This document shows positions 21,973 through 34,676 of a DNA stretch of 64,000 nucleotides, piece after piece. The position numbers and the translations under genes were made by a program. The notes beneath the pieces are model-generated. The model saw nothing but the letters and a program-made list of their open reading frames with translations, did no database searches and was not told where the DNA came from. Position 1 is the stretch's first letter; the number at the start of each line of letters is the position of its first letter. This DNA is from Gammaproteobacteria bacterium (GTDB lineage: Bacteria > Pseudomonadota > Gammaproteobacteria > Pseudomonadales > Pseudohongiellaceae), in NCBI GenBank assembly GCA_947457195.1, contig CANGUU010000009.1, positions 1-64,000 on the forward strand, written 5' to 3'.

Positions 21973-24348
21973 TCACTCTCCCCGGCGGCTGGCGGCGGCA
22001 GCCTCCACCACGGCGGTCTCCCAGGTCACCTGCGTCTGCGTCTGCGGATTGAAGCGGCTGCCTTCGTAGCGGGCGGCCCGGGCGGCAGCGATCTCCGCCT
22101 CGCTCAGGTGCTCGCTCGGCGCGAGCGCAAACATGTCGATGCCGCGACTGATTTCCGTGCCGTAGAGGAAGCCGTTGTACCAGTAGACCGACCAGTAGCC
22201 GCCCAGCACCAGTTGCTTGGCGTCGATCGGGCCACGATCGAAGTAGGCGATCTCGCGGGGATTGGCACTGTCGCTGAAGTCCATGACCGAGAGCCCGCCC
22301 TGGTACCAGGCCTGTGCGAACAGATCACGTCCGGGCACGGGAATGATCGAGCCGTTGTGCGCCACGCAGTTTTCCTTGTCGGTCTGCGGCGCCGGCAGCT
22401 TGTGGTGCGCACGAAACACCAGCTTGCCGTCGACGATGTCGTAGATCGCATTGGCGCCCCAGGTCCTGGGGTCGGATGCCCTGCAGCGCGGCCGACCGCC
22501 GCCACCCCACTCGTCGGTGAAGATCACCTTGGTGCCATCGTTGTTGAAGGTGGCCGAGTGCCAGTAGGCAAACGTGGTGTCGGTCACCACGTCGATGCGG
22601 GTGGGATTGAGGGGGTCGGCGATGTCGAACAGGATGCCGTTGCCCGAGCAGGCCCCCGCCGCGATCTTCAGCGCCGGGAACACGGTGATGTCATGGCATT
22701 GATCGGTCGCCGCGGTGCGCTGCGTGCCTTCTCCGTGGTCGCCGCCGGTCCACAGGCCTGCGATGGAGCCGGTCGCGTCGTCGGCAAACACACGCGGGCT
22801 CTTGACGATGCGCGCCCTCGAGGGGTCGGCCAGCGGGATTTCGATGACGTCGATGGAGAACAGCGCCGTGCGACTGTCACCGGCGATATCACCGATGCAC
22901 CCCGGCAGCTCCTCCGCCTCGCGTACGCCGGCGGTGCCCGAGTTGTAGACGATCAGGCGCTCGTCATCGGCGCTCACCACCGAATGGGTGTGGCTGCCGC
23001 GGCAGGTCTGTACAACGCCTACCTGGCGCGGCTGACTGAGGTCGGAAATGTCGAAGATGCGCAGGCCGCGGAAGCGGTCGCTGCTGATCTTGCCGGGCAC
23101 GCCCTGCAACCCGCAGTCGAGCCGGCCGCGGGTCTGCTCCACGCTCATCACCAGGAGGTTGCCGACCACCGAGACATCGCCCTGCCCGCCGGGGCAGACC
23201 ACCGAGCTCAGCAGCGCCGGCACGCCGTCCGCACCGAGGCGGTAGAGGTTGAAGCCGTGGTAGGAGCCTGCGACCAGCACGTCGCCAAAGAACGCCATGT
23301 CGGTGTTGGCAAAATTGAGCAGCGGGGAACGTTCGGCGAACTCGGTGAGATCTTCCTCCTCGCGGGCGGCAGTCGCCGTGTCTGCTGCCGGGGCGGTGGA
23401 CGTGGCTGCCACCGGCGCCGCCGCGTCGCTCGCTGCCGGTCCGGCGGGCTCGGCGTTCTCTGCGGTGTTGCTTGCTGCCGGCCCGGTAGCTCCAGCCAAC
23501 GGCCCGGCCTCGGTGGGCTCGGCGCTTTCTGCGGTGTCGGCAGCGTTCTTGTCCTTCTTGGGCACGGCCGGCGGGCGCAGGCTGGCGGGATTGGCCGGGT
23601 TGAAGAACCCGGCCGGCTTGGGGAGGCTGGCCACCTTGGTCAGGTTGAGGATCGCTTCCCCGGCATTGTCGAAGCCCGCCGCCAGCCCCGAGCGCGGATC
23701 GGCAGAAAGCCCGGCCAGCAGTTTGTCCATCCGCTCCATCTCGCTTTCCTGCTCGCTCTTGATGTCGCTGACAAAACGGTAGAGCACGGGATCGGCGGCG
23801 GTGCCTTCCTCGTCGAGGAGGTCGGTCACCATGTCAACCGCCCCGTCGTGATGGGCGATCATCAGCGCAAGGAACTGGCGGTCGAAGTCGGTGGCGGTGG
23901 CCGCCGCCAGCGCGGCAATCTGGTCGGCGCTGGCCATGCCTTTCATGGTGTGCTGCGCGTGCTGCAGAAGCGCCGCGTCCTCGGTCGGCTCGCCACGCTC
24001 AGCCAGCCACTCCTCCATGAACGCCCTTTCATCGGCCTGGCCGGCTTCGATGCGGCCAGCGATTTCGAGCAGATCCTGGGTATTGGTGCTGTCCTTGACC
24101 AGCGCCGCCATGTCCACGGCTTGCTGGTGGTGCACGATCATCGCCTGCAGGAAGGCGACATCGGCAGGCGTGTAAGTGGTCGTGGCGAGGTTGCTCGCCT
24201 CCTCGGCCGACAAGGTGCGACTCGCCTGGCCCGGCGCACCGGGCTGCACGATCGGTACGCTCTGCGCCACGGCGAGCCCCGCCGCCGACAGCAGCAAGGC
24301 GGAAAGTGCGGCGCGCAGGTCCATTACGACGGGATTTACCATTGGCAT
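21973..24348 (-). CDS. Exported DUF305 - LVIVD-repeat protein
   Basis: About 791 residues from the ATG at 24348, which follows AAAGGA; the frame stays open further upstream but runs toward the tmRNA terminator. The signal peptide ends near GLAVAQS. Residues about 40-220 are a DUF305 ferritin-like domain with two IVHHQQAVDMA / IAHHDGAVDMV histidine helices. A long Ala/Pro/Glu-rich linker (about 260-350) follows. The C-terminal 430 residues carry LVIVD-type beta-propeller repeats (NLYRLG, GLRIFDISDLSQPRQVG, DIADPLNPTRID, VMDFSDSANPREIAYFDRG). Possibly a metal-binding periplasmic or surface protein; substrate unknown. Confidence 0.8.
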   Translation of the reverse strand: MPMVNPVVMDLRAALSALLLSAAGLAVAQSVPIVQPGAPGQASRTLSAEEASNLATTTYTPADVAFLQAMIVHHQQAVDMAALVKDSTNTQDLLEIAGRIEAGQADERAFMEEWLAERGEPTEDAALLQHAQHTMKGMASADQIAALAAATATDFDRQFLALMIAHHDGAVDMVTDLLDEEGTAADPVLYRFVSDIKSEQESEMERMDKLLAGLSADPRSGLAAGFDNAGEAILNLTKVASLPKPAGFFNPANPASLRPPAVPKKDKNAADTAESAEPTEAGPLAGATGPAASNTAENAEPAGPAASDAAAPVAATSTAPAADTATAAREEEDLTEFAERSPLLNFANTDMAFFGDVLVAGSYHGFNLYRLGADGVPALLSSVVCPGGQGDVSVVGNLLVMSVEQTRGRLDCGLQGVPGKISSDRFRGLRIFDISDLSQPRQVGVVQTCRGSHTHSVVSADDERLIVYNSGTAGVREAEELPGCIGDIAGDSRTALFSIDVIEIPLADPSRARIVKSPRVFADDATGSIAGLWTGGDHGEGTQRTAATDQCHDITVFPALKIAAGACSGNGILFDIADPLNPTRIDVVTDTTFAYWHSATFNNDGTKVIFTDEWGGGGRPRCRASDPRTWGANAIYDIVDGKLVFRAHHKLPAPQTDKENCVAHNGSIIPVPGRDLFAQAWYQGGLSVMDFSDSANPREIAYFDRGPIDAKQLVLGGYWSVYWYNGFLYGTEISRGIDMFALAPSEHLSEAEIAAARAARYEGSRFNPQTQTQVTWETAVVEAAAASRRGE

Positions 24349-24520
24349 GGGGATTTTCCTTTTGTTGTGGCCGCCCTGAGGCTGCTCGCGGGGAAGCAGG
24401 GAATGCTGCAAGCGCCGTGCAACAGCCGCTTGTACGTTGGCTTCCTGCTGCTTGGGTTCCCCCGGGCGCGGCGCACTGGCGGAAGACGGCACCGATTCGG
24501 TGCCAAGACGGGTAACAGGC

Positions 24521-24553
24521 AAAAAAAATCCCAACCGGGTAAGGGTTGGGATT
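24521..24553 (-). terminator. Intrinsic terminator of tmRNA gene
   Basis: Read on the minus strand, AATCCCAACC (24553-24544) pairs perfectly with GGTTGGGATT (24536-24527) across a 7-nt loop, followed by a run of eight T (24528-24521, the first two of them shared with the end of the stem). It starts 8 nt after the tmRNA CCA end. Confidence 0.93.
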
Positions 24554-25107: not shown

Positions 25108-25494
25108 TCAGGCGCCGCCCTGGCGGACCAGCGTGAGGCGACCCTGTTTGCCGCCGGCCTGCCAGTCGGCGTTCAGCACGCGCAGCGGGGAGCCGATGTT
25201 GTCCAGCACGCCGCTGGCGCGGAAACGGAAGGGCTGGCCGTTGTCGTCCTTGAGTTCGGTGTCGACGGTCACTGTCCAGTCGCTGGAGTCCAGCTGCACG
25301 CTACCCACGGCGGTCTGCGTGACAGGGCCGGGGTTGGCGATGCCGGAGATCGTCTTGCCGTCCCAACTGAGGATGAGCGTGAGGAAGTGGCCGTCCCACT
25401 CGCCCTGCCAGGTGCCGGACAGGGGGTGCCCCTCCTGGGCCTGCAGCGGCAGGGTACAGACGGCGAATGCGAGCAAGGTGAACAGTGCTTTCAT
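25108..25494 (-). CDS. Small exported protein, unknown function
   Basis: 128 residues. The signal peptide ends near PLQAQEG. The mature 108 residues start with LSGTWQGEWDGHFLTLILSWDG and are predicted mainly beta, with a lipocalin-like small-barrel feel. It is the last gene of a run of five exported proteins on this strand, 18 nt after its neighbour. I do not recognise a named family. Confidence 0.7.
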   Translation of the reverse strand: MKALFTLLAFAVCTLPLQAQEGHPLSGTWQGEWDGHFLTLILSWDGKTISGIANPGPVTQTAVGSVQLDSSDWTVTVDTELKDDNGQPFRFRASGVLDNIGSPLRVLNADWQAGGKQGRLTLVRQGGA

Positions 25495-25512
25495 GGGCGT
25501 ATTCCGCGGGAG

Positions 25513-26343
25513 TCAGGGCACGACGGTGCTGTAGCGGCCTTCACCGATCATGGCGTCGGGCGACAGGTTGTTTTCCTGGCAGACGTATTCGAACAGCTCC
25601 TCGCCCGGCGTCCAGCCGACGGTGTAGCCACTCTCCCAGGGGGCGGTGTAGGCGCCGGGGTCATCGATCAGGACCCGGTAGTCGAGCGTGTCGCGGTCGC
25701 GGCGCGTGAAGCGCTCCACCAGGTGTAACTGCTCGGTAGTGGGCAGGCCGTCGCGGTTCTGCCACGACACTTCGTTGTAGCCCACACTGTCGATCACCAG
25801 CGTGTCGCCCTCCCAGTGGCCCACCGAGTGGCCGAAGTAGCTGGGCGTCAGGTTCTGCGGGTGCTCGCGGCCGTCCATGTAGACGATGCGGTAGGTCATC
25901 GCGTTCGACGTGGTGACGATGTAGAGGCGCTGCAGTTCCGGCAGGTCGATGATCTCGAAGCCGTAGGGCGACATGATCTGGCGCGGCCCGCCGGCGGGCT
26001 TGCAGCGTGTGTAGGGTTCGCTGGCCAGAAACAGGTCGTGACGGAAGTTGGTGAGCTTGAGCGCCCAGTCCTGCAGCGGAATGTCCTTGATGTGCACCGG
26101 AGCGCGCTGCGCACGCTCGGCTTCGTAGGAGTCGGGGTTCACTACCAGATTGGCGGTACGGCGTACCCAGAAGCCGACTTCGCCTTCGGGCGGGCCGAAA
26201 TTGATGCGGCCATCGGCGTGGCGGGGCGCCGGCGGCGCTGGCTCGCTCGGCGCTGCCGGGGGCTGGGCGTGGGCCGTGGCCAAGGCGAGGCCAAAGGCGA
26301 GGGCGCTGGTGACGGCACGGGACAACAGGCGTGGCATGGTCAT
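25513..26343 (-). CDS. Exported protein of the WEGDTLVV family (DUF6152-associated)
   Basis: 276 residues. GAGGAG precedes the ATG and a signal peptide ends near ATAHAQ. Shared family features, also seen in the proteins at 26366 and 27687, are CKPAGGPRQ...PYGFEI, YFG-S-G-WEGDTLVI, ERFTRRD, DDPGAYTAPWE and a terminal E-VCQENN. It lacks the DUF6152-like N-terminal domain of its 26366 neighbour. No enzymatic motif is evident; function unknown. Confidence 0.75.
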   Translation of the reverse strand: MTMPRLLSRAVTSALAFGLALATAHAQPPAAPSEPAPPAPRHADGRINFGPPEGEVGFWVRRTANLVVNPDSYEAERAQRAPVHIKDIPLQDWALKLTNFRHDLFLASEPYTRCKPAGGPRQIMSPYGFEIIDLPELQRLYIVTTSNAMTYRIVYMDGREHPQNLTPSYFGHSVGHWEGDTLVIDSVGYNEVSWQNRDGLPTTEQLHLVERFTRRDRDTLDYRVLIDDPGAYTAPWESGYTVGWTPGEELFEYVCQENNLSPDAMIGEGRYSTVVP

Positions 26344-26365
26344 GGTCTCCTCGTTCAGCGGCGCC

Positions 26366-27496
26366 TTACTGGCGATTGTCCTGGCAGTAGTACTCGGGCA
26401 GCTCCTGGCCCGCGACCCAGTGCAGGTCCCAGCTGCTGGTCCACGGGCGCGTGTAGGCGCCGGGATCGTCGACGGTGACTTCGTAGTGCAGCGTGCCGAG
26501 ATCGCTGCGCGTGAAACGCTCGGTGAGTGTCAGCAGGCGCGTGTGCGGCAGACCGCCGTTGCTGAACCAGAAACCCTCGTTGAAGCCGCTCACCTGCACC
26601 ACCAGCGTGTCGCCTTCCCAGCGCGCCAGCGAGCGGCCGAAGAACAGCGGATTGTCGTCATTGCCGGTGACCTGCCCCACGCTGCGGCGGCCGTCGGCAT
26701 ACAGCAGTCGCCAGTTGCCGTTGCCACCGGCGTGCAGCAGGAAGATGCGGCCGCGCGCCCGCTCTTCCACGAACTGGAAGCCGAAGGGCTGCTGGAACTG
26801 GCGGGGACCGGACGGCGGAATGCAGTTGAGGAACAGCGGGTCGTCCTTCAGGAAGTTGCGCTGGCGCAGCAGGTAGAGGTCGTGCGCCCAGGGCTGCAGC
26901 GGAGCCACCTTGCCGGCGTCGCCGGCATCGGCCAACAAGCCGTGGGCATCCATGGCCACCACCACGCCATCCTCGACCAGTGCAGTGCGCTCCGGCAGGG
27001 CCCAGTAGCCCGTCTCGCCGGGGGGTGGGCCGAGCCGCGGCTGGTTATCGGGCCAGCGCGGTGTTGGCCCGCGCAGGGGCGCGGCGCGGCGAGCAAAAAC
27101 GTCATCGCGTACCGTGAGCACGGCGCTGCCATCGGAGCGCTCGACGCGCGTGCCCCACAGTTGGTGGCTGCCATTGCGGGCGGTGGGGCCCGACACCGAG
27201 ATGAGTTCGCCGGGCTTCAGCGACGACGCCTGCCAGCCGCTCCACTCCAGTTCCACCGCACTGGCCAGTTCCACGGCCCAGTTGGTCTCGGCGCCTTCAG
27301 TGTCGGTCACATTGAAGAAGACGTGCACATGGGGGTTGGCCCAGTCGACGGCGGTGATGCGGCCGCGCAGCGTGGCGGGTTTGCTGTCATCGAACTTGGC
27401 AGCTACCGGGTGGTGCGCGGCAGCGGGGTGAGCGGCCAGCGCCAGCAGGGCGGCCAAGGCCAGGCAGGCGCCGAGGGGCGCAGCGCGGGAGGGCAT
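26366..27496 (-). CDS. Exported fusion of DUF6152-like and WEGDTLVV domains
   Basis: 376 residues. The signal peptide ends at AHPAAA, directly followed by HHPVAAKFDDSKPATLRG and DWANPHVHVFFNV, which parallel HHSFSMFDQTRKVTHSG and QWTNPHVWIFVDV in the DUF6152 protein at 28514. The C-terminal 230 residues match the neighbours' domain: CIPPSGPRQ, FFG-S-ARWEGDTLVV, ERFTRSD, DDPGAYTRPW, E-YCQDN. The fusion suggests that the separately encoded domains act together. Function unknown. Confidence 0.78.
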   Translation of the reverse strand: MPSRAAPLGACLALAALLALAAHPAAAHHPVAAKFDDSKPATLRGRITAVDWANPHVHVFFNVTDTEGAETNWAVELASAVELEWSGWQASSLKPGELISVSGPTARNGSHQLWGTRVERSDGSAVLTVRDDVFARRAAPLRGPTPRWPDNQPRLGPPPGETGYWALPERTALVEDGVVVAMDAHGLLADAGDAGKVAPLQPWAHDLYLLRQRNFLKDDPLFLNCIPPSGPRQFQQPFGFQFVEERARGRIFLLHAGGNGNWRLLYADGRRSVGQVTGNDDNPLFFGRSLARWEGDTLVVQVSGFNEGFWFSNGGLPHTRLLTLTERFTRSDLGTLHYEVTVDDPGAYTRPWTSSWDLHWVAGQELPEYYCQDNRQ

Positions 27497-27686
27497 CGGT
27501 AGGGTTCCACTCTGGATCTGAAGAAGACAGTACTGGTGCAGAAGCTGCCCGCCGCGGCGGTGCTTCTGTCATCGTTGGTGCTGGCAGTATTGCAAGTTCC
27601 GCCGCCGCAGCAAAACTGGTGGCCCGGCTAATTCACATTAGATGCAGAGTCTGCCGCGCCGAGCGACAGCCCCGCCGCCGCGTCGC

Positions 27687-28472
27687 TCAGAAGTCGGCCT
27701 GGGTCTGCCCCTCGGCGTCCAGTGGATGGCGGTTGTTCTCGGCGCAGACGTACTCGAGGATGTCCCAGGTGCGGTCGCGGCGGAATGTGTGGTTCTGATG
27801 CCAGGGCTGCGCCAGCACGTTCGGATCTTCGTAGGTGAAGTCGACGTGCAGCAGATCCTTGTTGGCCGCATCGAGGTAGATGCGCTCGCTGATCTTCAGT
27901 TGGTCGCTGTTGGTGATGCCGGGCGTGCCGAGCCGCTGGCCTGCCTTGGTGCCCACGGTCTCCACCACCAGCGTCTCGCCTTCCCAGCGCCCTACCGAGT
28001 AACCGAAATAATTCGGGTCCACGTCGTCGGCGCTCGGCAGTGGTCGGCCATCGGTGAAGATGCGCCGCACCATCATCAGCGCTTCCTGATTCACCACGAT
28101 CTTGCCCGGGGTGAAGAGGAATTCGAGGCTGTAGGGCATGGTCATCATGCTGGGCATGCCGTCGGGTTCGCAGTTGTCGAGCGTTTCCGGCACCTCGTAG
28201 TTGGGGTCTGCCTTGAGCTTGGCCTGCTCGGCTTCGTAGCGTGCCTTGTACTCACCGATCAGCACCGGCTGGTCGCCGGTGATGCGACCGATGTTGGGCT
28301 GCCAGATGCCGCGCCAGTCGGGCAAGCGATCGAGTTCCGCGTAGCTGACCTGCTCGGCACTGGCCGGGAACACCGGGCGGGCAGCCGGCTGGGCTTCGAC
28401 GCTGGACGGCAGCGACAGGTTCGCCGACAGGGCAACAGCCAGAGCGGCAAGCAAGGGGCGACGGGCCAGCAT
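27687..28472 (-). CDS. Exported protein of the WEGDTLVV family
   Basis: 261 residues from the ATG at 28472, which has AGGAGA upstream and begins a signal peptide (ending near SSVEAQ). It starts with LPDWRGIWQPN, a pattern common in large paralogous families of exported proteins. The C-terminal domain shares YFGYSVGRWEGETLVV, ISERIYLD, YEDPNVLAQPW and EYVCAENN with the two proteins downstream. The 190-nt gap after it (27497-27686) contains no gene I can see. Confidence 0.75.
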   Translation of the reverse strand: MLARRPLLAALAVALSANLSLPSSVEAQPAARPVFPASAEQVSYAELDRLPDWRGIWQPNIGRITGDQPVLIGEYKARYEAEQAKLKADPNYEVPETLDNCEPDGMPSMMTMPYSLEFLFTPGKIVVNQEALMMVRRIFTDGRPLPSADDVDPNYFGYSVGRWEGETLVVETVGTKAGQRLGTPGITNSDQLKISERIYLDAANKDLLHVDFTYEDPNVLAQPWHQNHTFRRDRTWDILEYVCAENNRHPLDAEGQTQADF

Positions 28473-28513
28473 GGAAGATTCTCCTGGGAAACGGGGGCAG
28501 GCAGCGCCTGGGC

Positions 28514-28924
28514 TCAGTGGTTGTTCTCGTCGCAGACTTTCTGCGCTGCACCGACGTCGCAGTAGTAGCGGCCGTTGGCCATGCGGATCGTGAAGAAACG
28601 ACCGCCGGGCTTGCCGTTGGCGTAGGGGCTGACCGTGAACTCGACGCTGTCGCCGACCTTGACCATGTCCTGGGTGAAATTGCGACGGGCCAGATGCACC
28701 TTGCTGGTGAACTCCATGCCCCACTTTTCCATGGCGCCGTCGTCACGCTTTACGTCGACGAAGATCCACACGTGCGGATTGGTCCACTGCACTTCCGACA
28801 CCACACCGCTGTGGGTGACTTTCCTGGTCTGGTCGAACATGGAAAAGGAGTGATGGGCGACAGCGAGCGGCGCAAGGGCGCAGAGCGCGGCAGCGGCCAG
28901 CAGATAGGCGAGTAGGGTTTTCAT
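28514..28924 (-). CDS. DUF6152 family periplasmic protein
   Basis: 136 residues from the ATG at 28924. The signal peptide ends near LAVAHH, and mature HHSFSMFD with WTNPHVWIFVDV are DUF6152 hallmarks. The HH at the mature N-terminus could bind metal if processed there; this is inference. It is the first gene of the five-gene run of exported proteins. Confidence 0.82.
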   Translation of the reverse strand: MKTLLAYLLAAAALCALAPLAVAHHSFSMFDQTRKVTHSGVVSEVQWTNPHVWIFVDVKRDDGAMEKWGMEFTSKVHLARRNFTQDMVKVGDSVEFTVSPYANGKPGGRFFTIRMANGRYYCDVGAAQKVCDENNH

Positions 28925-29157: not shown

Positions 29158-31095
29158 ATGGCGACAGACGGGGGCGGCCCGCACCACGACAAGAACGGCA
29201 GGCTCATCGTGGCACTGGAGCCCCGCGCCGATGGCGCCACCGGCGGTGCAGCCGCCGATTCACCGTACGGTCGCTCCATCCTCAACGACCTGCGCCAGCT
29301 CAACAGCGGCTTCTGGTCCACTCCGCACAGCCGCCCCATCGTCGCGCTCCTGACCGCCATCGTGCTGATCATCGTCGCCAACATGTTTGGCCAGGTCTTC
29401 CTCAATCGCTGGAATGGCGCATTCTTCGATGCCATCGAGGTACGCGACACCGCCGAGATCCGCCGCCAGCTCGGCCGCTTCCTGTTCATCGTCGGCGGGC
29501 TGCTGGTGCTGGTGGTAACGCAGACCTTTCTGCACGAGACCGCCAAGCTGCGGGTGCGGGCCTGGCTCACCGAGCACCTGTTCGACGCCTGGCTGGTCGG
29601 CGGCCGTCCCTACCGCCTCGGTGCCCGTGGCGATACCGGCGTCAACCCCGACCAGCGCATGCAGGAGGATGCGCGCCACCTCAGCGAGCTTTCCACCAAC
29701 CTCGGCATTGGCCTGTTGCACCAGTTCTTGCTGCTCACCACCTTCATCGGCGTGCTGTGGCAATTGTCGCGCGATGTGGTGTTCGACATCGGCGGCGTGC
29801 ACGTGGCGATTCCCGGCTACATGGTGTGGTGCGCCGTGCTGTATGCACTGCTCGGGTCGATGCTGACCTGGCTGGTCGGTCGCCGGCTGGTAGGGCTGAA
29901 CGCCGCCCGCTATGCACGCGAGGCCGAACTGCGCTACCGCCTGGTCCGGGTGAGCGAGCGGGCCGAGGCCGTGGCCCTGTATCGCGGAGAAAGCGGCGAG
30001 CGTCGCAACCTCGATGCCGCCCTCGGCAATGTGCTCGACATCACGCGCCAGCTGATTTTTGCGCTGGCACGGCTGACCTGGATTACATCGGGCTATGGCT
30101 GGCTGGCCATCGTGGTACCGGCGGTGGTGGCCCTGCCCGGTTACCTGCAGGGCCAGCTCACGCTCGGCGGTCTCATGGTGGTGATCGGTGCCTTCAACCA
30201 GGTACAGCAGGCGCTGCGCTGGTTCGTCGACAATACGGCCGGCATCGCCGACTGGCGGGCTACGCTCTACCGGGTCGCCGTATTCGACCACTCGCTGCGC
30301 ACGCTCGATGAGTGCGGTGCCTGCCTCGACCAGATCCGTACCAGCGAGCACCCGCAGGGCTGGCTGGCGTTCGAGAACCTCACCATCCAGACGGCCTTCG
30401 GCAAGGTGGTGATCGTCAATGCCAACGAAGAAATCCGCCGTGGTGAGCGTGTCCTCATCATGGGGGACTCCGGGGCGGGCAAGAGCACGCTGTTCCGCGC
30501 CATCTCCGGCCTCTGGCCCTGGGGCCACGGCCGCATCCTGCTGCCGCCGCGGGAAGCGATGATGTTCATGCCGCAGCACCCATACCTGCCGCTCGGTACC
30601 TTGCGGGCCGCCGTGTGCTACCCGGACCCCCCGGAGCAGTTCGACTCCGCCCGCATCGAGGCCGCCTTTGTGCGCGTGGGGCTGAAGGAGCTGGTGGCCT
30701 CGCTCGATGTGGAGGAGCGCTGGGACCGCGTGCTGTCGCAGGGTCAGCAGCAGTTGGTGGCCTTCGCCCGCCTGTTGCTGCACCGGTCGTCGTGGGTCTT
30801 CCTCGACGAGGCCACCAGCGCGCTCGACCTCGACAGCCAGACCAACGTGATGTCGATGTTCGAGCAGGAGTTCAAGGACGCCACCGTGGTGAGTATCGGC
30901 CATCGGCCGAGCCTGGCGCAGTTCCACCAGCGCCAGCTGCAACTGAAGGTCACACCCGAGGGTGCAGAACTCAGCCGGCGGGAGTCCGCTGACCCGCCCG
31001 CCGGCATCGTTGCCCAGAGCCAGCACTGGTTCCGGGCCCTGCTCGGCAAATTTTCCGGGTTCATCCAGCGCGCAACGAACCGCCAGCCGTCGTGA
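29158..31095 (+). CDS. SbmA/BacA-like ABC transporter with fused ATPase (YddA-type)
   Basis: 645 residues. The N-terminal half is the SbmA/BacA-like membrane domain with about six helices (FLNRWNGAFFDAIEVRD; ...RMQEDARHLSELSTNLG; FNQVQQALRWFVDN). The C-terminal ATPase has Walker A GDSGAGKST (436-444), a signature reading LSQGQQQ (about 525) and Walker B WVFLDEATSALD (about 548). Family members move peptides, cobalamin or very-long-chain acyl groups. The next gene starts within 15 nt. Confidence 0.88.
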   Translation: MATDGGGPHHDKNGRLIVALEPRADGATGGAAADSPYGRSILNDLRQLNSGFWSTPHSRPIVALLTAIVLIIVANMFGQVFLNRWNGAFFDAIEVRDTAEIRRQLGRFLFIVGGLLVLVVTQTFLHETAKLRVRAWLTEHLFDAWLVGGRPYRLGARGDTGVNPDQRMQEDARHLSELSTNLGIGLLHQFLLLTTFIGVLWQLSRDVVFDIGGVHVAIPGYMVWCAVLYALLGSMLTWLVGRRLVGLNAARYAREAELRYRLVRVSERAEAVALYRGESGERRNLDAALGNVLDITRQLIFALARLTWITSGYGWLAIVVPAVVALPGYLQGQLTLGGLMVVIGAFNQVQQALRWFVDNTAGIADWRATLYRVAVFDHSLRTLDECGACLDQIRTSEHPQGWLAFENLTIQTAFGKVVIVNANEEIRRGERVLIMGDSGAGKSTLFRAISGLWPWGHGRILLPPREAMMFMPQHPYLPLGTLRAAVCYPDPPEQFDSARIEAAFVRVGLKELVASLDVEERWDRVLSQGQQQLVAFARLLLHRSSWVFLDEATSALDLDSQTNVMSMFEQEFKDATVVSIGHRPSLAQFHQRQLQLKVTPEGAELSRRESADPPAGIVAQSQHWFRALLGKFSGFIQRATNRQPS

Positions 31096-31106
31096 GAGAG
31101 GTGTCC

Positions 31107-33380
31107 ATGCCGCCCACTGTCGTTCCCTTCGTCGAAGACCTGCTTGCCCGCCTGACGCTGGAGGAGAAAGTCGGCCAGCTCAATCATCCCAATGCCTTCG
31201 GCGGTGACAGCACCGGCGCCGGCGGCGCCGTCGACAACATCGAGCAGCGCATCGCCCGCGGTGAGGTGGGTTTTCTGGCCGCCGGTGCTGCCCCGGAGCA
31301 GCTCCGGACCTGGCAGCAGATCGCCTGTGAGCAGTCACCCCACGGCATCCCGCTGCTGTTCACCATGGACGTGATCCACGGGCACCGCACCATTTTCCCG
31401 CTGCCCATCGCGCTGGCGGGCAGCTTCGATACCGACCTGATCCGCGCCACCGCCGCCGTGGCAGCCCACGAGGCCAGCGCCGAAGGGGTATCGCTCAACT
31501 GGGCGCCCATGCTGGATGTGTCACGCGATGCCCGCTGGGGGCGCTGTGCCGAAAGTCCGGGCGAAGACCCACTGCTCGGCGCAGCCTATGCGCGCGCCAT
31601 GGTGGAGGGCTTCCATGGTAGCGATGCGGCTGCGGCGGGTCGGCTGCTCTGCTGCGCGAAGCACTTTGCCGGCTACGGCTTCGCCGAGGGGGGCAGGGAT
31701 TACAACGCCGTCGACATGACGCCCTACCGTCTCCACAACGTGGTACTGCCGCCCTTCCGCGCGGCGGTGGAGGCCGGTGTGGCCGCCGTCATGGTCGGTT
31801 TCCACGATCTCGGTGGCATCCCGTGCACGGCACACGGTGAACTGCTGGAGGGTGTGCTGCGGCAGGGGCTCGGTTTCGACGGCCTGCTCATTTCCGATTA
31901 CACGGCCATCCTCGAACTCGTCCATCATGGGGTGGCTGCCGATCTCGAAGAGGCGGCCTTGCTCGCCTTCAGCGCCGGCGTTGATGTCGATCTCATCAGT
32001 GACGCCTATCGCCGGTACTTGCCGGGGCTGGTGCAGAGCGGGCGACTCGCCATGTCGGCGATCGATGCGGCCTGCCGTCGGGTGCTGCTGGCCAAATGGA
32101 AACGCGGGCTGTTTGCCGAGCCCCGTCGGGGACTGCAGGGAGGCGTTGCAACGACACTGTTGCCCGAGCATCGGCAGTTGGCCCGCCATGCCGCCGCCAA
32201 CTGCTGCGTGCTGCTGAAAAACGATGGCGTGCTGCCGCTCGCGCCGCAGACCAAGGTGGCGCTGGTGGGACCGTTGGCGGCCAACCGCGAAAATCTGCAG
32301 GGGACCTGGGCCGTGGCTGCCCGCAGCCAGGACAGCGTGACGGTGCTGGAGGGGCTGCAAGCCGCTGGCCGTGACGTGCGGCATGCGCTTGGCGTCAACC
32401 TCGAGGATGATGCCGACCGGGCGGCGCGCGTCAATGTGTTCGGCACGACGTTCACACGCGACCCGCGCACGGCCGCCGAGCTCATCGCTGAGGCCGTGAC
32501 CCTGGCACGCGATGCGGAGGTGATCGTGGCCTGCGTCGGCGAAGCCAAGGAACACACCGGCGAGTCGTCGACGCGGACCGATCTGACCTTGCCGGGTCGC
32601 CAGCGCGAGCTTCTGGCGGCGCTGTTTGCCACGGGCAAGCCACTCGTGCTGGTCACACTGAGCGGGCGACCGCTGGCCCTCGACTGGGAGCACCAGCACG
32701 CGGCGGCCATCCTGCACGCCTGGTTCGGCGGCAGCGAAACAGGTCCTGCCATTGCCGACGTGCTCTACGGGGTGGTGAATCCTTCAGCGCGCCTGGCCAT
32801 GGGGTTTCCCCACGACTCGGGACAGTGTCCGCTCAGCTACGCCGAGCCCCCCACCGGGCGTCCCCGCGAGCGCATCGGCGTGGATGTCGGCGGCGACTCC
32901 GAGGTGGACGCCGCAGGCCAGCGGGTGTTCCGCAAATTCACCACCGCCTGCCGGCTGGAGGGACCGCATACGGCGCTGTATCCCTTCGGCCACGGCCTCA
33001 GCTATACGCGCTTCGAGTACAGCGACCTGCGGCTGCTTGCGGCGCCCCGCGGGGGTGAGCAGGCCACGCTGCAGTTCAGCGTGACGCTGCATAACGTCGG
33101 CACCCGCGCCGGCACCGAAGTGGTTCAGGTCTATGTCAGCGATCCCGTGGCGAGTCGCTCGCGACCGCGGCGCGAACTCAAGGCCTTTCGGCGCGTAACG
33201 CTGCCAGCGGGTCAGCAGAGCACGCTGCACTTCGAGTTGCCGGCAGCGCTGCTCGGTTTCTGCAGGGCGCCGAGCTTGCTGCGGCCCGAGCCGGTGTTCG
33301 AGCCCGGTGCCTTCGTGGTGTACGTGGGTGGCAGCTCCTTGGCGGCGTTGTCGCTCGACGTCGACTGGCAGGCGGGCTAA
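31107..33380 (+). CDS. Glycoside hydrolase family 3 beta-glucosidase, cytoplasmic
   Basis: 757 residues from the ATG at 31107, chosen because GAGAGGTG precedes it; a GTG at 31092 overlapping the transporter stop is the alternative. The GH3 barrel carries SRDARWGRCAESPGEDP, KHFAGYG and the nucleophile D264 in GLLISDY. The second domain has GESSTRTDLTLPGRQ, typical of the acid/base loop, and a C-terminal Fn3-like domain follows. It resembles BglX in layout, but there is no signal peptide, so it should act inside the cell on imported beta-glucosides or beta-oligoglucosides. Confidence 0.92.
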   Translation: MPPTVVPFVEDLLARLTLEEKVGQLNHPNAFGGDSTGAGGAVDNIEQRIARGEVGFLAAGAAPEQLRTWQQIACEQSPHGIPLLFTMDVIHGHRTIFPLPIALAGSFDTDLIRATAAVAAHEASAEGVSLNWAPMLDVSRDARWGRCAESPGEDPLLGAAYARAMVEGFHGSDAAAAGRLLCCAKHFAGYGFAEGGRDYNAVDMTPYRLHNVVLPPFRAAVEAGVAAVMVGFHDLGGIPCTAHGELLEGVLRQGLGFDGLLISDYTAILELVHHGVAADLEEAALLAFSAGVDVDLISDAYRRYLPGLVQSGRLAMSAIDAACRRVLLAKWKRGLFAEPRRGLQGGVATTLLPEHRQLARHAAANCCVLLKNDGVLPLAPQTKVALVGPLAANRENLQGTWAVAARSQDSVTVLEGLQAAGRDVRHALGVNLEDDADRAARVNVFGTTFTRDPRTAAELIAEAVTLARDAEVIVACVGEAKEHTGESSTRTDLTLPGRQRELLAALFATGKPLVLVTLSGRPLALDWEHQHAAAILHAWFGGSETGPAIADVLYGVVNPSARLAMGFPHDSGQCPLSYAEPPTGRPRERIGVDVGGDSEVDAAGQRVFRKFTTACRLEGPHTALYPFGHGLSYTRFEYSDLRLLAAPRGGEQATLQFSVTLHNVGTRAGTEVVQVYVSDPVASRSRPRRELKAFRRVTLPAGQQSTLHFELPAALLGFCRAPSLLRPEPVFEPGAFVVYVGGSSLAALSLDVDWQAG

Positions 33381-33383
33381 GCC

Positions 33384-34676
33384 ATGGCGAGGCAGAGCGG
33401 CTCCGACAGCGTTGCAACCGCCCTGCAGCGGGCCGGGCAGGTGTCTACCGGCGCGCTGCTCGATCTGGTGCAGCGTGGCACGCTGGCTTATTTCCACGAG
33501 TTCGCCCACCCCGTGAGCGGCATGGCGCGTGAGCGCAGCAACCCGGCTGCCTACGACTTCCAGGAGACCGTGACCAGCGGCGGCACCGGGTTCGGCATCA
33601 TGGCCCTGCTGGCGGCCGTCCGACGCGGTTTTCTTGCGCGACACGAGGTGCGAGCGCAGGTGGTGCGCATCGTGGCCTTCCTGGGACGGGCTGAGCGACA
33701 TCACGGCGTGTTCAGCCATTTTCTGCATGGCACGACAGGCGCCACCATCGCCTTCTCGCCTCTCGACGACGGCGGCGATCTCGTGGAAACCGCCTTCCTG
33801 ATGATGGGGCTGCTCTGTGCACGCCAGTTCTTCGATCGCCCGACGGCAGCCGAGGTGCGTCTGCGCAGCGACATCGACGCACTCTGGCGTGGCGTGGAGT
33901 GGGACTGGCATGCGCGTCCGGACCGCGACGCACTGCTCTGGCACTGGAGTCCGCGGCACCAGTTCGCCATGAACCATGCCATTACCGGCTGGAATGAAGC
34001 GCTGATCGTCTATGTGCTGGCCTCTGCCTCACCCACGCACGCAGTGGCCGCAGAGCGTTACCACCAGGGCTGGACAGACAGTCCGCACTTTCGCAACGGC
34101 GAGCGCTATTTCGGCATCGAGTTGCCGCTGGGTCCAGCGGGCGGTGGGCCGCTGTTCTTTTCCCACTACTCGTTTCTGGGTCTCGACCCGCGCGGCCTCG
34201 TGGATCGCTACGCCGACTATTTTGCGCAGAATCGGGCACACACGCTGATCAACCGGGCTCACTGCCTGGCCAATCCCCACGGCTATCCCGGCTACGGGCC
34301 GGAGTGCTGGGGCCTGACCGCCAGCGATGGCGAGGCGGGTTACTCCGCCTTCGCCCCCGACAATGATCAAGGCATCATTACGCCCTCGGCGGCGCTGGCG
34401 GCGCTACCCTATGCGCCGGAGGAGTCGCTGCAGGCAGTACGGCACTTTCTGCTCACGCGGGGTGCTGAACTCTGGACCCCGCTCGGCTTCCGGGATGCCT
34501 TCAGCCCAGTCACGGGCTGGGTGGCTGAAGGCCAGCTGGCCATCGATCAGGGGCCGATCATGGTCATGATCGAGAACCACCGGTCCGGCCTGCTGTGGTC
34601 GCTGTTCATGGCGGTTCCCGAGGTGCAGGTTGCCCTGCGACGCCTCGGTTTCAGCACCCCCCACCTGCGGGATTGA
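33384..34676 (+). CDS. PF10091/GH144-like putative glucanase (glucoamylase family)
   Basis: 430 residues with no signal peptide, starting 3 nt after the GH3 gene. The pattern fits the PF10091 alpha/alpha-barrel: LAYFHEFAHPVSGMARERSN, TSGGTGFGIMALL, GDLVETAFLMMGLL, HYSFLGLDPRG, WGLTASDG and an acidic loop late in the sequence. Characterised members (GH144) cut beta-1,2-glucan. With the GH3 gene this suggests processing of beta-1,2- or related beta-glucan. Its last 26 nt overlap the convergent GH15 gene. Confidence 0.75.
   Translation: MARQSGSDSVATALQRAGQVSTGALLDLVQRGTLAYFHEFAHPVSGMARERSNPAAYDFQETVTSGGTGFGIMALLAAVRRGFLARHEVRAQVVRIVAFLGRAERHHGVFSHFLHGTTGATIAFSPLDDGGDLVETAFLMMGLLCARQFFDRPTAAEVRLRSDIDALWRGVEWDWHARPDRDALLWHWSPRHQFAMNHAITGWNEALIVYVLASASPTHAVAAERYHQGWTDSPHFRNGERYFGIELPLGPAGGGPLFFSHYSFLGLDPRGLVDRYADYFAQNRAHTLINRAHCLANPHGYPGYGPECWGLTASDGEAGYSAFAPDNDQGIITPSAALAALPYAPEESLQAVRHFLLTRGAELWTPLGFRDAFSPVTGWVAEGQLAIDQGPIMVMIENHRSGLLWSLFMAVPEVQVALRRLGFSTPHLRD

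Follow-up and report, generated by a model that had tools for sequence, protein, structure and literature searches.

A stretch of 64,000 nucleotides from a gammaproteobacterium of the family Pseudohongiellaceae, hereafter the window, carries at positions 25108-28924 a locus of five open reading frames on the minus strand (Table 1), placed as in a preliminary description that had been made from the sequence alone. All five products are predicted from their sequences to be exported. The unnamed domain shared by three of the products is here called W, DUF6152 is called D, and the family of P0005 is called S. The starts of P0004 and P0003 at 28924 and 28472 fit signal peptides; those in the list of open reading frames, 29017 and 28724, lie too far upstream.

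Table 1. Genes and sequence features of the D-W locus, in positions of the window.
Feature	Position	Strand	Description	Basis or remark
P0005	25108-25494	-	small exported protein S, 128 aa	third family of the cassette; 8 members in own-genome loci and one in each of 13 relatives' loci
P0001	25513-26343	-	stand-alone W-domain protein, 276 aa, exported	BLASTP homology and AlphaFold
P0001 WEGDTLVI core motif (residues 177-184)	25792-25815	-		
P0002	26366-27496	-	D-W fusion, 376 aa, exported	PF19649 at residues 18-111 and W homology E 2e-47
P0002 W-part WEGDTLVV core motif	26597-26620	-		
P0002 D-part NPH motif	27329-27337	-		
P0002 codons of predicted mature N-terminal His-His (H28, H29)	27410-27415	-		signal-peptidase site rule
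P0003	27687-28472	-	W-domain protein of a divergent subgroup, stand-alone, exported, 261 aa	BLASTP to P0001 E 1e-25 and tree
P0003 WEGETLVV motif	27963-27986	-		
P0004	28514-28924	-	stand-alone DUF6152 protein (D), 136 aa, exported	PF19649 100.4 bits; signal peptide ends AVA before HHSF
P0004 NPH motif (third conserved histidine, H51)	28772-28780	-		invariant in 42-row D alignment
P0004 codons of predicted mature N-terminal His-His (H24, H25)	28850-28855	-		invariant in 42-row D alignment

P0001, P0002 and P0003 had been described as carrying one common domain, and BLASTP bore this out. P0001 and the C-terminal part of P0002 are 41% identical over 233 aligned positions (E 2e-47), P0001 and P0003 are 32% identical (E 1e-25), and P0002 matches P0003 with E 5e-17; W takes up the C-terminal two thirds of P0002. 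Of the ordered motif set ascribed to all three, P0003 has degenerate forms, with PSM for PRQ, WEGETLVV in the core, ERIY for ERF and EDPNVLAQPW for DDPGAYTxPW. No Pfam or NCBIfam model matched W at E<=1 (P0001, P0003 and the C-terminal part of P0002), nor did any match S (P0005) at that threshold. The N-terminal DUF6152 domain proposed for P0002, with its counterpart as a separate gene at 28514, was likewise confirmed, PF19649 scoring 82 bits on the N-terminus of P0002 and still more on P0004 (Table 1) against a cut-off of 27. No paper on DUF6152, PF19649 or the W motif was found in the open-access library that was searched.

Expansion and pairing of D and W

Both D and W have undergone a mass expansion, of which this locus is a single copy. 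In the genome of the window (2.81 Mb in 139 contigs, estimated to be 100% complete), PF19649 gave 54 matches, every one above its cut-off. A paralogue count by W profile, which the preliminary description had suggested as a check, returned 63 rows with a three-row profile of P0001, P0002 and P0003 (P0003 being split in two). Iterated profiles brought the totals to 67 W proteins (5/67 matches partial) and 55 D proteins, 17 proteins carrying both; these totals cover the window and the stretches fetched by profile matches, and W elsewhere could be missed. Together the W and D genes number 105 and occupy 77,445 bp, or 2.75% of the genome. Sound on the shared domain and the fusion, the preliminary description had overlooked this genome-wide expansion, the S partner and the conserved cassette treated below.

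Among relatives, D was found in 18-64 copies in ten genomes of the same genus, in 45-75 and 18-22 copies in two other genera, and in 1-2 copies in five more; it was absent from 13 genomes from other families of the order, and an even draw across the phylum gave D in 17 of 200 genomes. W was present in 24/24 genomes of the bacterial family (the genome of the window included) and in 0/13 from the other families of the order, W counts in relatives being scored up to 67 per genome, where that figure means at least 67. When a seven-row W alignment was run against named genomes, the best 80 of 576 confirmed stretches were labelled mostly Acidobacteriota and Gammaproteobacteria, and the closest among these 80, from UppL7s_bin-0873, holds a relative 76% identical to P0001. 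In the genome of the window, by comparison, the 27 paralogues aligned with P0001 share 19-49% identity with it. Some proteins carry two W domains in tandem and no D (L018:10306-11778, L109:6001-7563 and L114:1329-2897). Six long W proteins (L016:1558-2715, L020:16006-17451, L023:12866-14239, L025:4065-5426, L027:6391-7731 and L029:3208-4398) have a common N-terminal region, around GVEPLPVDLF and DFY.D, and this extension matched neither D nor W profiles. W domains also occur in metagenome records labelled Bordetella parapertussis (L107 and L116), a bin that we judge to be probably mislabelled.

Genes of the two families lie side by side. A W gene or a D-W fusion is the direct neighbour of 33 of the 38 stand-alone D genes in the genome of the window; random placement of D among an assumed 2600 genes gave 1.9 on average and never more than 7 in 2000 draws. 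Within 1.5 kb, D was accompanied by W in 35/38 cases in this genome, 56/58 in the named loci, 9/10 on plasmids and 30/30 in further relatives' loci; the last three sets were mostly fetched through a W match, with a few loci occurring twice, and are therefore not independent tests of adjacency. Six of the further loci (L162-L167) had been chosen by D, three of them for a sole or nearly sole D, and W stood alongside in all. D is contained in 50 of the 80 named loci and lies in the same stretch in all seven W-bearing plasmid loci, from sphingomonads and a Sinorhizobium. Fusions gave 62 matches (59 distinct), with the order D then W in 62/62. Trees of paired D and W, taken from 28 same-strand adjacent pairs with long matches and 17 fusions (the rest were dropped), correlated with r 0.62 over the 45 pairs and r 0.71 over the 28 unfused pairs, values reached by 0/2000 permutations. 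The prediction that the DUF6152 and WEGDTLVV proteins act together is thus strongly supported by fusion, adjacency and tree correlation, and their co-occurrence elsewhere was found as well; D and W very probably share a function.

P0005 is no chance neighbour: it belongs to a third family that recurs in these loci. S proteins number 8 in the loci of the genome of the window and 13 in those of named relatives (one each), and they lie within 1.5 kb of W in 7/8, 13/13 and, for the further relatives' loci, 28/28 cases. The gene order S-DW-D-W recurs in L042, L046, L048, L054 and L055, and the order DW-W-S in the window and L041; among named genomes, both Gammaproteobacteria and Acidobacteriota have the cassette. 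In the tree, P0001 and likewise P0002 group with cassette members from these two taxa, with supports of 0.62-0.95 along the path up to 11-19 tips. A genome-specific inflation, in which exported proteins were duplicated neutrally with no shared function, would fit the tie of high copy number to the one bacterial family that has W in every genome searched. However, the same cassette order is kept in Acidobacteriota, D-W pairs recur in sphingomonads and a Sinorhizobium, site-like residues are conserved, and P0001 has a far closer relative in another genome than among the paralogues aligned with it, which leaves neutral inflation hardly credible.

Histidines of D and predicted folds of D and W

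The 42-row alignment of D is invariant at H24, H25, N49, P50, H51, E71, L78 and G91 (P0004 numbering). By a rule that asks for a hydrophobic stretch and small residues at -1 and -3 (small-x-small), ending before the first histidine, a signal-peptidase-type site stands directly before the His-His pair (HH) in 184 of the 186 distinct D domains with HH that could be scored, and mature D should therefore start with His-His. A crude signal-peptide count over all W and D genes against background was uninformative, called starts being trimmed, and was not used. Over all loci there are 193 distinct D domains, 191 of them scorable at the three histidines of HH and NPH; all three are present in 187, all are absent in four, and a partial set was found in none (Fisher 1.9e-8, relatedness ignored). 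The four His-less domains (L028, L048, L054 and L055) are all D parts of fusions and belong to two lineages, and for three of the four an intact stand-alone D lies in the same locus. At twelve other conserved columns, the Asn, Pro, Trp and Glu as well as four of the Gly are kept by all four; two of the domains have a gap at a further Gly column, two have a different residue at yet another Gly, and in one sequence Ala has become Gly and Asp has become Glu. This pattern suggests that HH and NPH form one metal site.

Exposure of an N-terminal histidine by signal-peptide cleavage has been argued to mark metalloproteins and has been a route to the discovery of Ni- and Cu-binding proteins; histidine is the first mature residue in 2.6% of the signal-peptide set of that study, the main text of which does not name DUF6152 (PMC12537917). 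Because D combines a predicted mature His-His with a coupled third histidine, as in the N-terminal-histidine metalloproteins treated there (PMC12537917), a metal site is the likeliest reading of these residues, and D probably binds metal, to judge from conservation. The preliminary description, which had pointed to conserved acidic and aromatic residues, had overlooked this histidine pair as well as two highly conserved cysteines of W.

AlphaFold2 modelled P0002 (115 rows) with a predicted local distance difference test score (pLDDT) of 90.0 and a predicted template modelling score (pTM) of 0.84, and P0001 alone (128 rows) with pLDDT 87.2 and pTM 0.82. For the P0002 model, 48 of the 50 listed structural matches place the D part on proteins of the oligonucleotide/oligosaccharide-binding (OB) fold (SSB, PriB and others), the best being PriB 4apv (Z 9.8, 81 residues, 2.3 A); D is accordingly predicted to be an OB fold. 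The other two listed matches place residues 150-362 on fatty-acid-binding proteins (FABP) with Z 8.2. For the P0001 model, all 50 listed matches are barrels of the FABP/retinoid/bile-acid type, UnaG, SAHS or NanoLuc, the best being 5h9a, a barrel of the CRBP/FABP type (Z 8.5, 121 residues, 3.0 A). The structural similarity expected among the W proteins is borne out by the models of two of them, P0001 and the C-terminal part of P0002 both matching FABP-type barrels.

The modelled W barrel has about nine strands, with helices between the first and the second. Near its start stands G-x-W, with G57 and W59 conserved at 90% or more of 128 rows and a strand at 57-61 in the model; G-x-W at the start of the first strand is the lipocalin signature. 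As the two models agree, and with these helices and G-x-W, W is likely a barrel of the lipocalin/fatty-acid-binding type. With the 128-row profile, W matched no PDB sequence at E<=10, and P0001 alone gave two chance-level matches only; given this lack of sequence similarity to Pfam, NCBIfam and PDB entries, W is labelled calycin-like and is not filed as a calycin member. Invariant in the 128 rows (P0001 numbering) are C114, G171, D228 and C255, of which C114 and C255 probably form a disulfide, as their conservation implies; no His or Met is invariant or nearly so. The earlier proposal that conserved residues form a binding site gains support from the barrel predicted for W, and we give W an even chance of binding an organic ligand.

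W could also be a pure ligand-binding barrel of the solute-receptor kind, the histidines of D serving structure or partner docking and holding no metal. Such a role accords with the predicted W fold, with a paralogue expansion resembling that of solute receptors and with genera in which W far outnumbers D. It is at odds with the His-His pair found at the predicted mature N-terminus of nearly every D, and with the loss of HH and NPH together while Asn, Pro, Trp, Glu and most Gly columns remain, since a docking or structural role is compatible with this joint loss but does not predict it. We regard this ligand-only reading as rather unlikely.

Proposed function and genomic surroundings

We propose that D and W form an exported two-part unit, with metal on D and a small hydrophobic molecule on W, diversified by duplication. 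The probability of this reading is put at roughly 0.45, a joint figure that allows for the correlation between shared function, metal and ligand. D would be a small OB-fold protein in which the mature His-His and the third histidine hold a transition metal, Cu or Ni most likely, and W would be a lipocalin/FABP-like barrel, probably stapled by a disulfide, that holds a small hydrophobic organic molecule; the two would work as one unit, whether encoded by neighbouring genes or joined in a single D-W chain. The paralogues would differ chiefly in which ligand they take, and this would account for genomes with more than 50 copies; S would be a small accessory protein. The most likely role would be periplasmic capture, possibly with metal-assisted conversion, of organic substrates, as a step ahead of periplasmic quinoprotein-type oxidation or metallo-hydrolases.

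A bolder reading, distinctly improbable, is that the D-W units make up a new class of exported enzymes that depend on a metal, such as copper oxidases or oxygenases; the OB-fold D with its mature His-His would then carry the metal and the lipocalin-like W would present a small hydrophobic substrate. If so, one small genome would use about fifty versions of the unit on different organic molecules outside the cytoplasm. As matters stand, nearly 3% of this genome and many loci of Acidobacteriota code for exported proteins without known function. Should D hold a metal and W be a ligand barrel, both families would be open to direct test, D (about 110 residues) by a metal assay and W by a ligand screen. 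A positive outcome would give the N-terminal-histidine metalloproteins a further fold and might account for the way in which abundant uncultured bacteria deal with many small organic molecules.

The surroundings of W and D were assessed by whole-genome family searches, which replaced Pfam lists of 90 neighbours and 117 background genes; the P values are raw, and four families were tried at three distances each. The genome of the window holds 47 TonB plug domains, about 28 pyrroloquinoline quinone (PQQ)-dehydrogenase proteins (48 rows merged), 6 LigB and 26 metallo-beta-lactamase-fold matches; for 2.8 Mb, the first two counts amount to many genes of periplasmic oxidation and outer-membrane uptake. 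Of the four families, only the metallo-beta-lactamase-fold genes are clearly, if modestly, enriched: they lie within 1 kb of W or D in 7 of 26 cases, where 1.6 are expected (P 8.7e-4), and still in 6 of 25 (P 0.0039) after removal of a hydrolase fused to W. This fusion (L016:4718-6460), in the same genome, joins W to a metallo-beta-lactamase-fold domain as a second fusion partner; among family models, those of quinoprotein relay hydrolases come nearest to its hydrolase part, at scores below their cut-offs. A gene of this genome that stands beside D, L038:473-1294, scores 242.9 bits against a cut-off of 240 for the NCBIfam model of subclass B3 metallo-beta-lactamases.

TonB receptors or related outer-membrane barrels lie near four named cassettes (L042, L048, L053 and L054; ten large neighbours scanned), and Croceibacterium atlanticum has the gene row D-D-W-TonB receptor. 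As a general linkage this candidate was demoted on the count in the genome of the window (8/47 near W or D, 5.9 expected). A link to ring cleavage of lignin aromatics is not claimed, only one of six LigB genes of that genome being near W or D; in relatives, LigB was found in 3 of 63 other neighbours (some gene calls there are spurious antisense open reading frames), and 4-oxalomesaconate tautomerase near one cassette. DUF6644, seen near W-D in Novosphingobium, was rejected as a membrane partner, the genome of the window having two sub-threshold matches, neither near W or D. In the window itself, the product of 21973-24534 combines a DUF305 domain (PF03713) with a long C-terminal region that has no Pfam match at E<=0.01, and 29158-34676, adjoining the cassette, holds in a row an SbmA/BacA-like ATP-binding cassette transporter, a GH3 glycosidase and a putative glucoamylase (PF10091).

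The receptor row of C. atlanticum bears on a second alternative, a metal-trafficking or sequestering system in which D would grip the metal and W would be only a docking partner or storage barrel, with no organic ligand. The mature His-His and the co-conserved third histidine would suit such a system, and in the main text of the study on N-terminal-histidine families these are assigned to transport or sequestration, TonB receptors being near one of them (PMC12537917). Yet one or two metals would hardly account for more than 50 divergent paralogues in each genome; TonB receptors show no enrichment near W and D in the genome of the window, and in W itself no His or Met is invariant or close to it. 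We therefore hold metal trafficking alone to be unlikely.

Several observations weigh against the proposed metal-and-ligand unit. W reaches 6-23 copies in genera with only 1-2 D, and 12 of the 50 stand-alone W genes in the genome of the window are not beside D or a fusion; because of these two facts, W does not always need D. The correlation of the D and W trees can arise from co-duplication of the pairs without physical contact. The four His-less D domains amount to two loss events only, and in the D model NPH lies at the far end of the long first strand. The Z values for the W fold are near the noise level of the tool, Z 7-8 being common for unmatched models; Foldseek on the P0001 model gave nothing at E<=0.001 (best E 0.058 or worse), and its best matches included streptavidin-, Tp0751- and UnaG-type barrels mixed with unrelated proteins such as RhiE, OMPLA and neuraminidases. 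Among the surrounding genes of the same genome, PQQ proteins are weakly enriched near W and D (9/28 lie within 6 kb against an expectation of 4.4, P 0.023, and the shorter distances of 4 and 2 kb give P 0.05-0.08), and neither TonB receptors (within 4 kb, P 0.23) nor LigB dioxygenases are enriched.

Relation to known systems

P0004 and the N-terminus of P0002 are members of DUF6152 (PF19649) above its curated cut-off; the additions made here are the predicted OB fold, the putative mature His-His, the coupled NPH histidine and the pairing with W. An N-terminal histidine metal site is known from histidine-brace proteins, such as lytic polysaccharide monooxygenases (LPMO) and CopC. Similar in design are the N-terminal-histidine metalloproteins DUF4198, DUF6702 and the anglerases, in which removal of the signal peptide leaves histidine as residue 1, with another conserved histidine further on (PMC12537917). 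The same is predicted for D, where NPH supplies the further histidine in 187/191 domains. The new families reported in the main text of that study are beta-sandwich folds, whereas D is a predicted OB fold; D also has histidine at position 2, and the manual pipeline described there rejects such a histidine as second ligand (PMC12537917).

W resembles the fatty-acid-binding proteins, retinol-binding proteins and lipocalins in its predicted barrel of about nine strands, its helices and G-x-W. These barrel families are collectively called calycins, from which W differs by a long N-terminal region, two invariant cysteines, its occurrence in exported bacterial proteins and the absence of sequence similarity. 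CusF is an OB fold, and D is like CusF and other periplasmic OB-fold chaperones of metal or heme in its predicted fold, export and a histidine near the N-terminus; homology of D to CusF was not shown, the comparison of E. coli CusF with the D profile being weak (hhalign probability 5.5%). As to the scale of the expansion, a parallel is offered by large periplasmic solute-receptor expansions such as Bug/TctC. Both there and in W and D, dozens of divergent exported paralogues are found in one genome; the Bug/TctC fold is, however, unrelated to those of W and D, and the W-D unit is composed of two parts.

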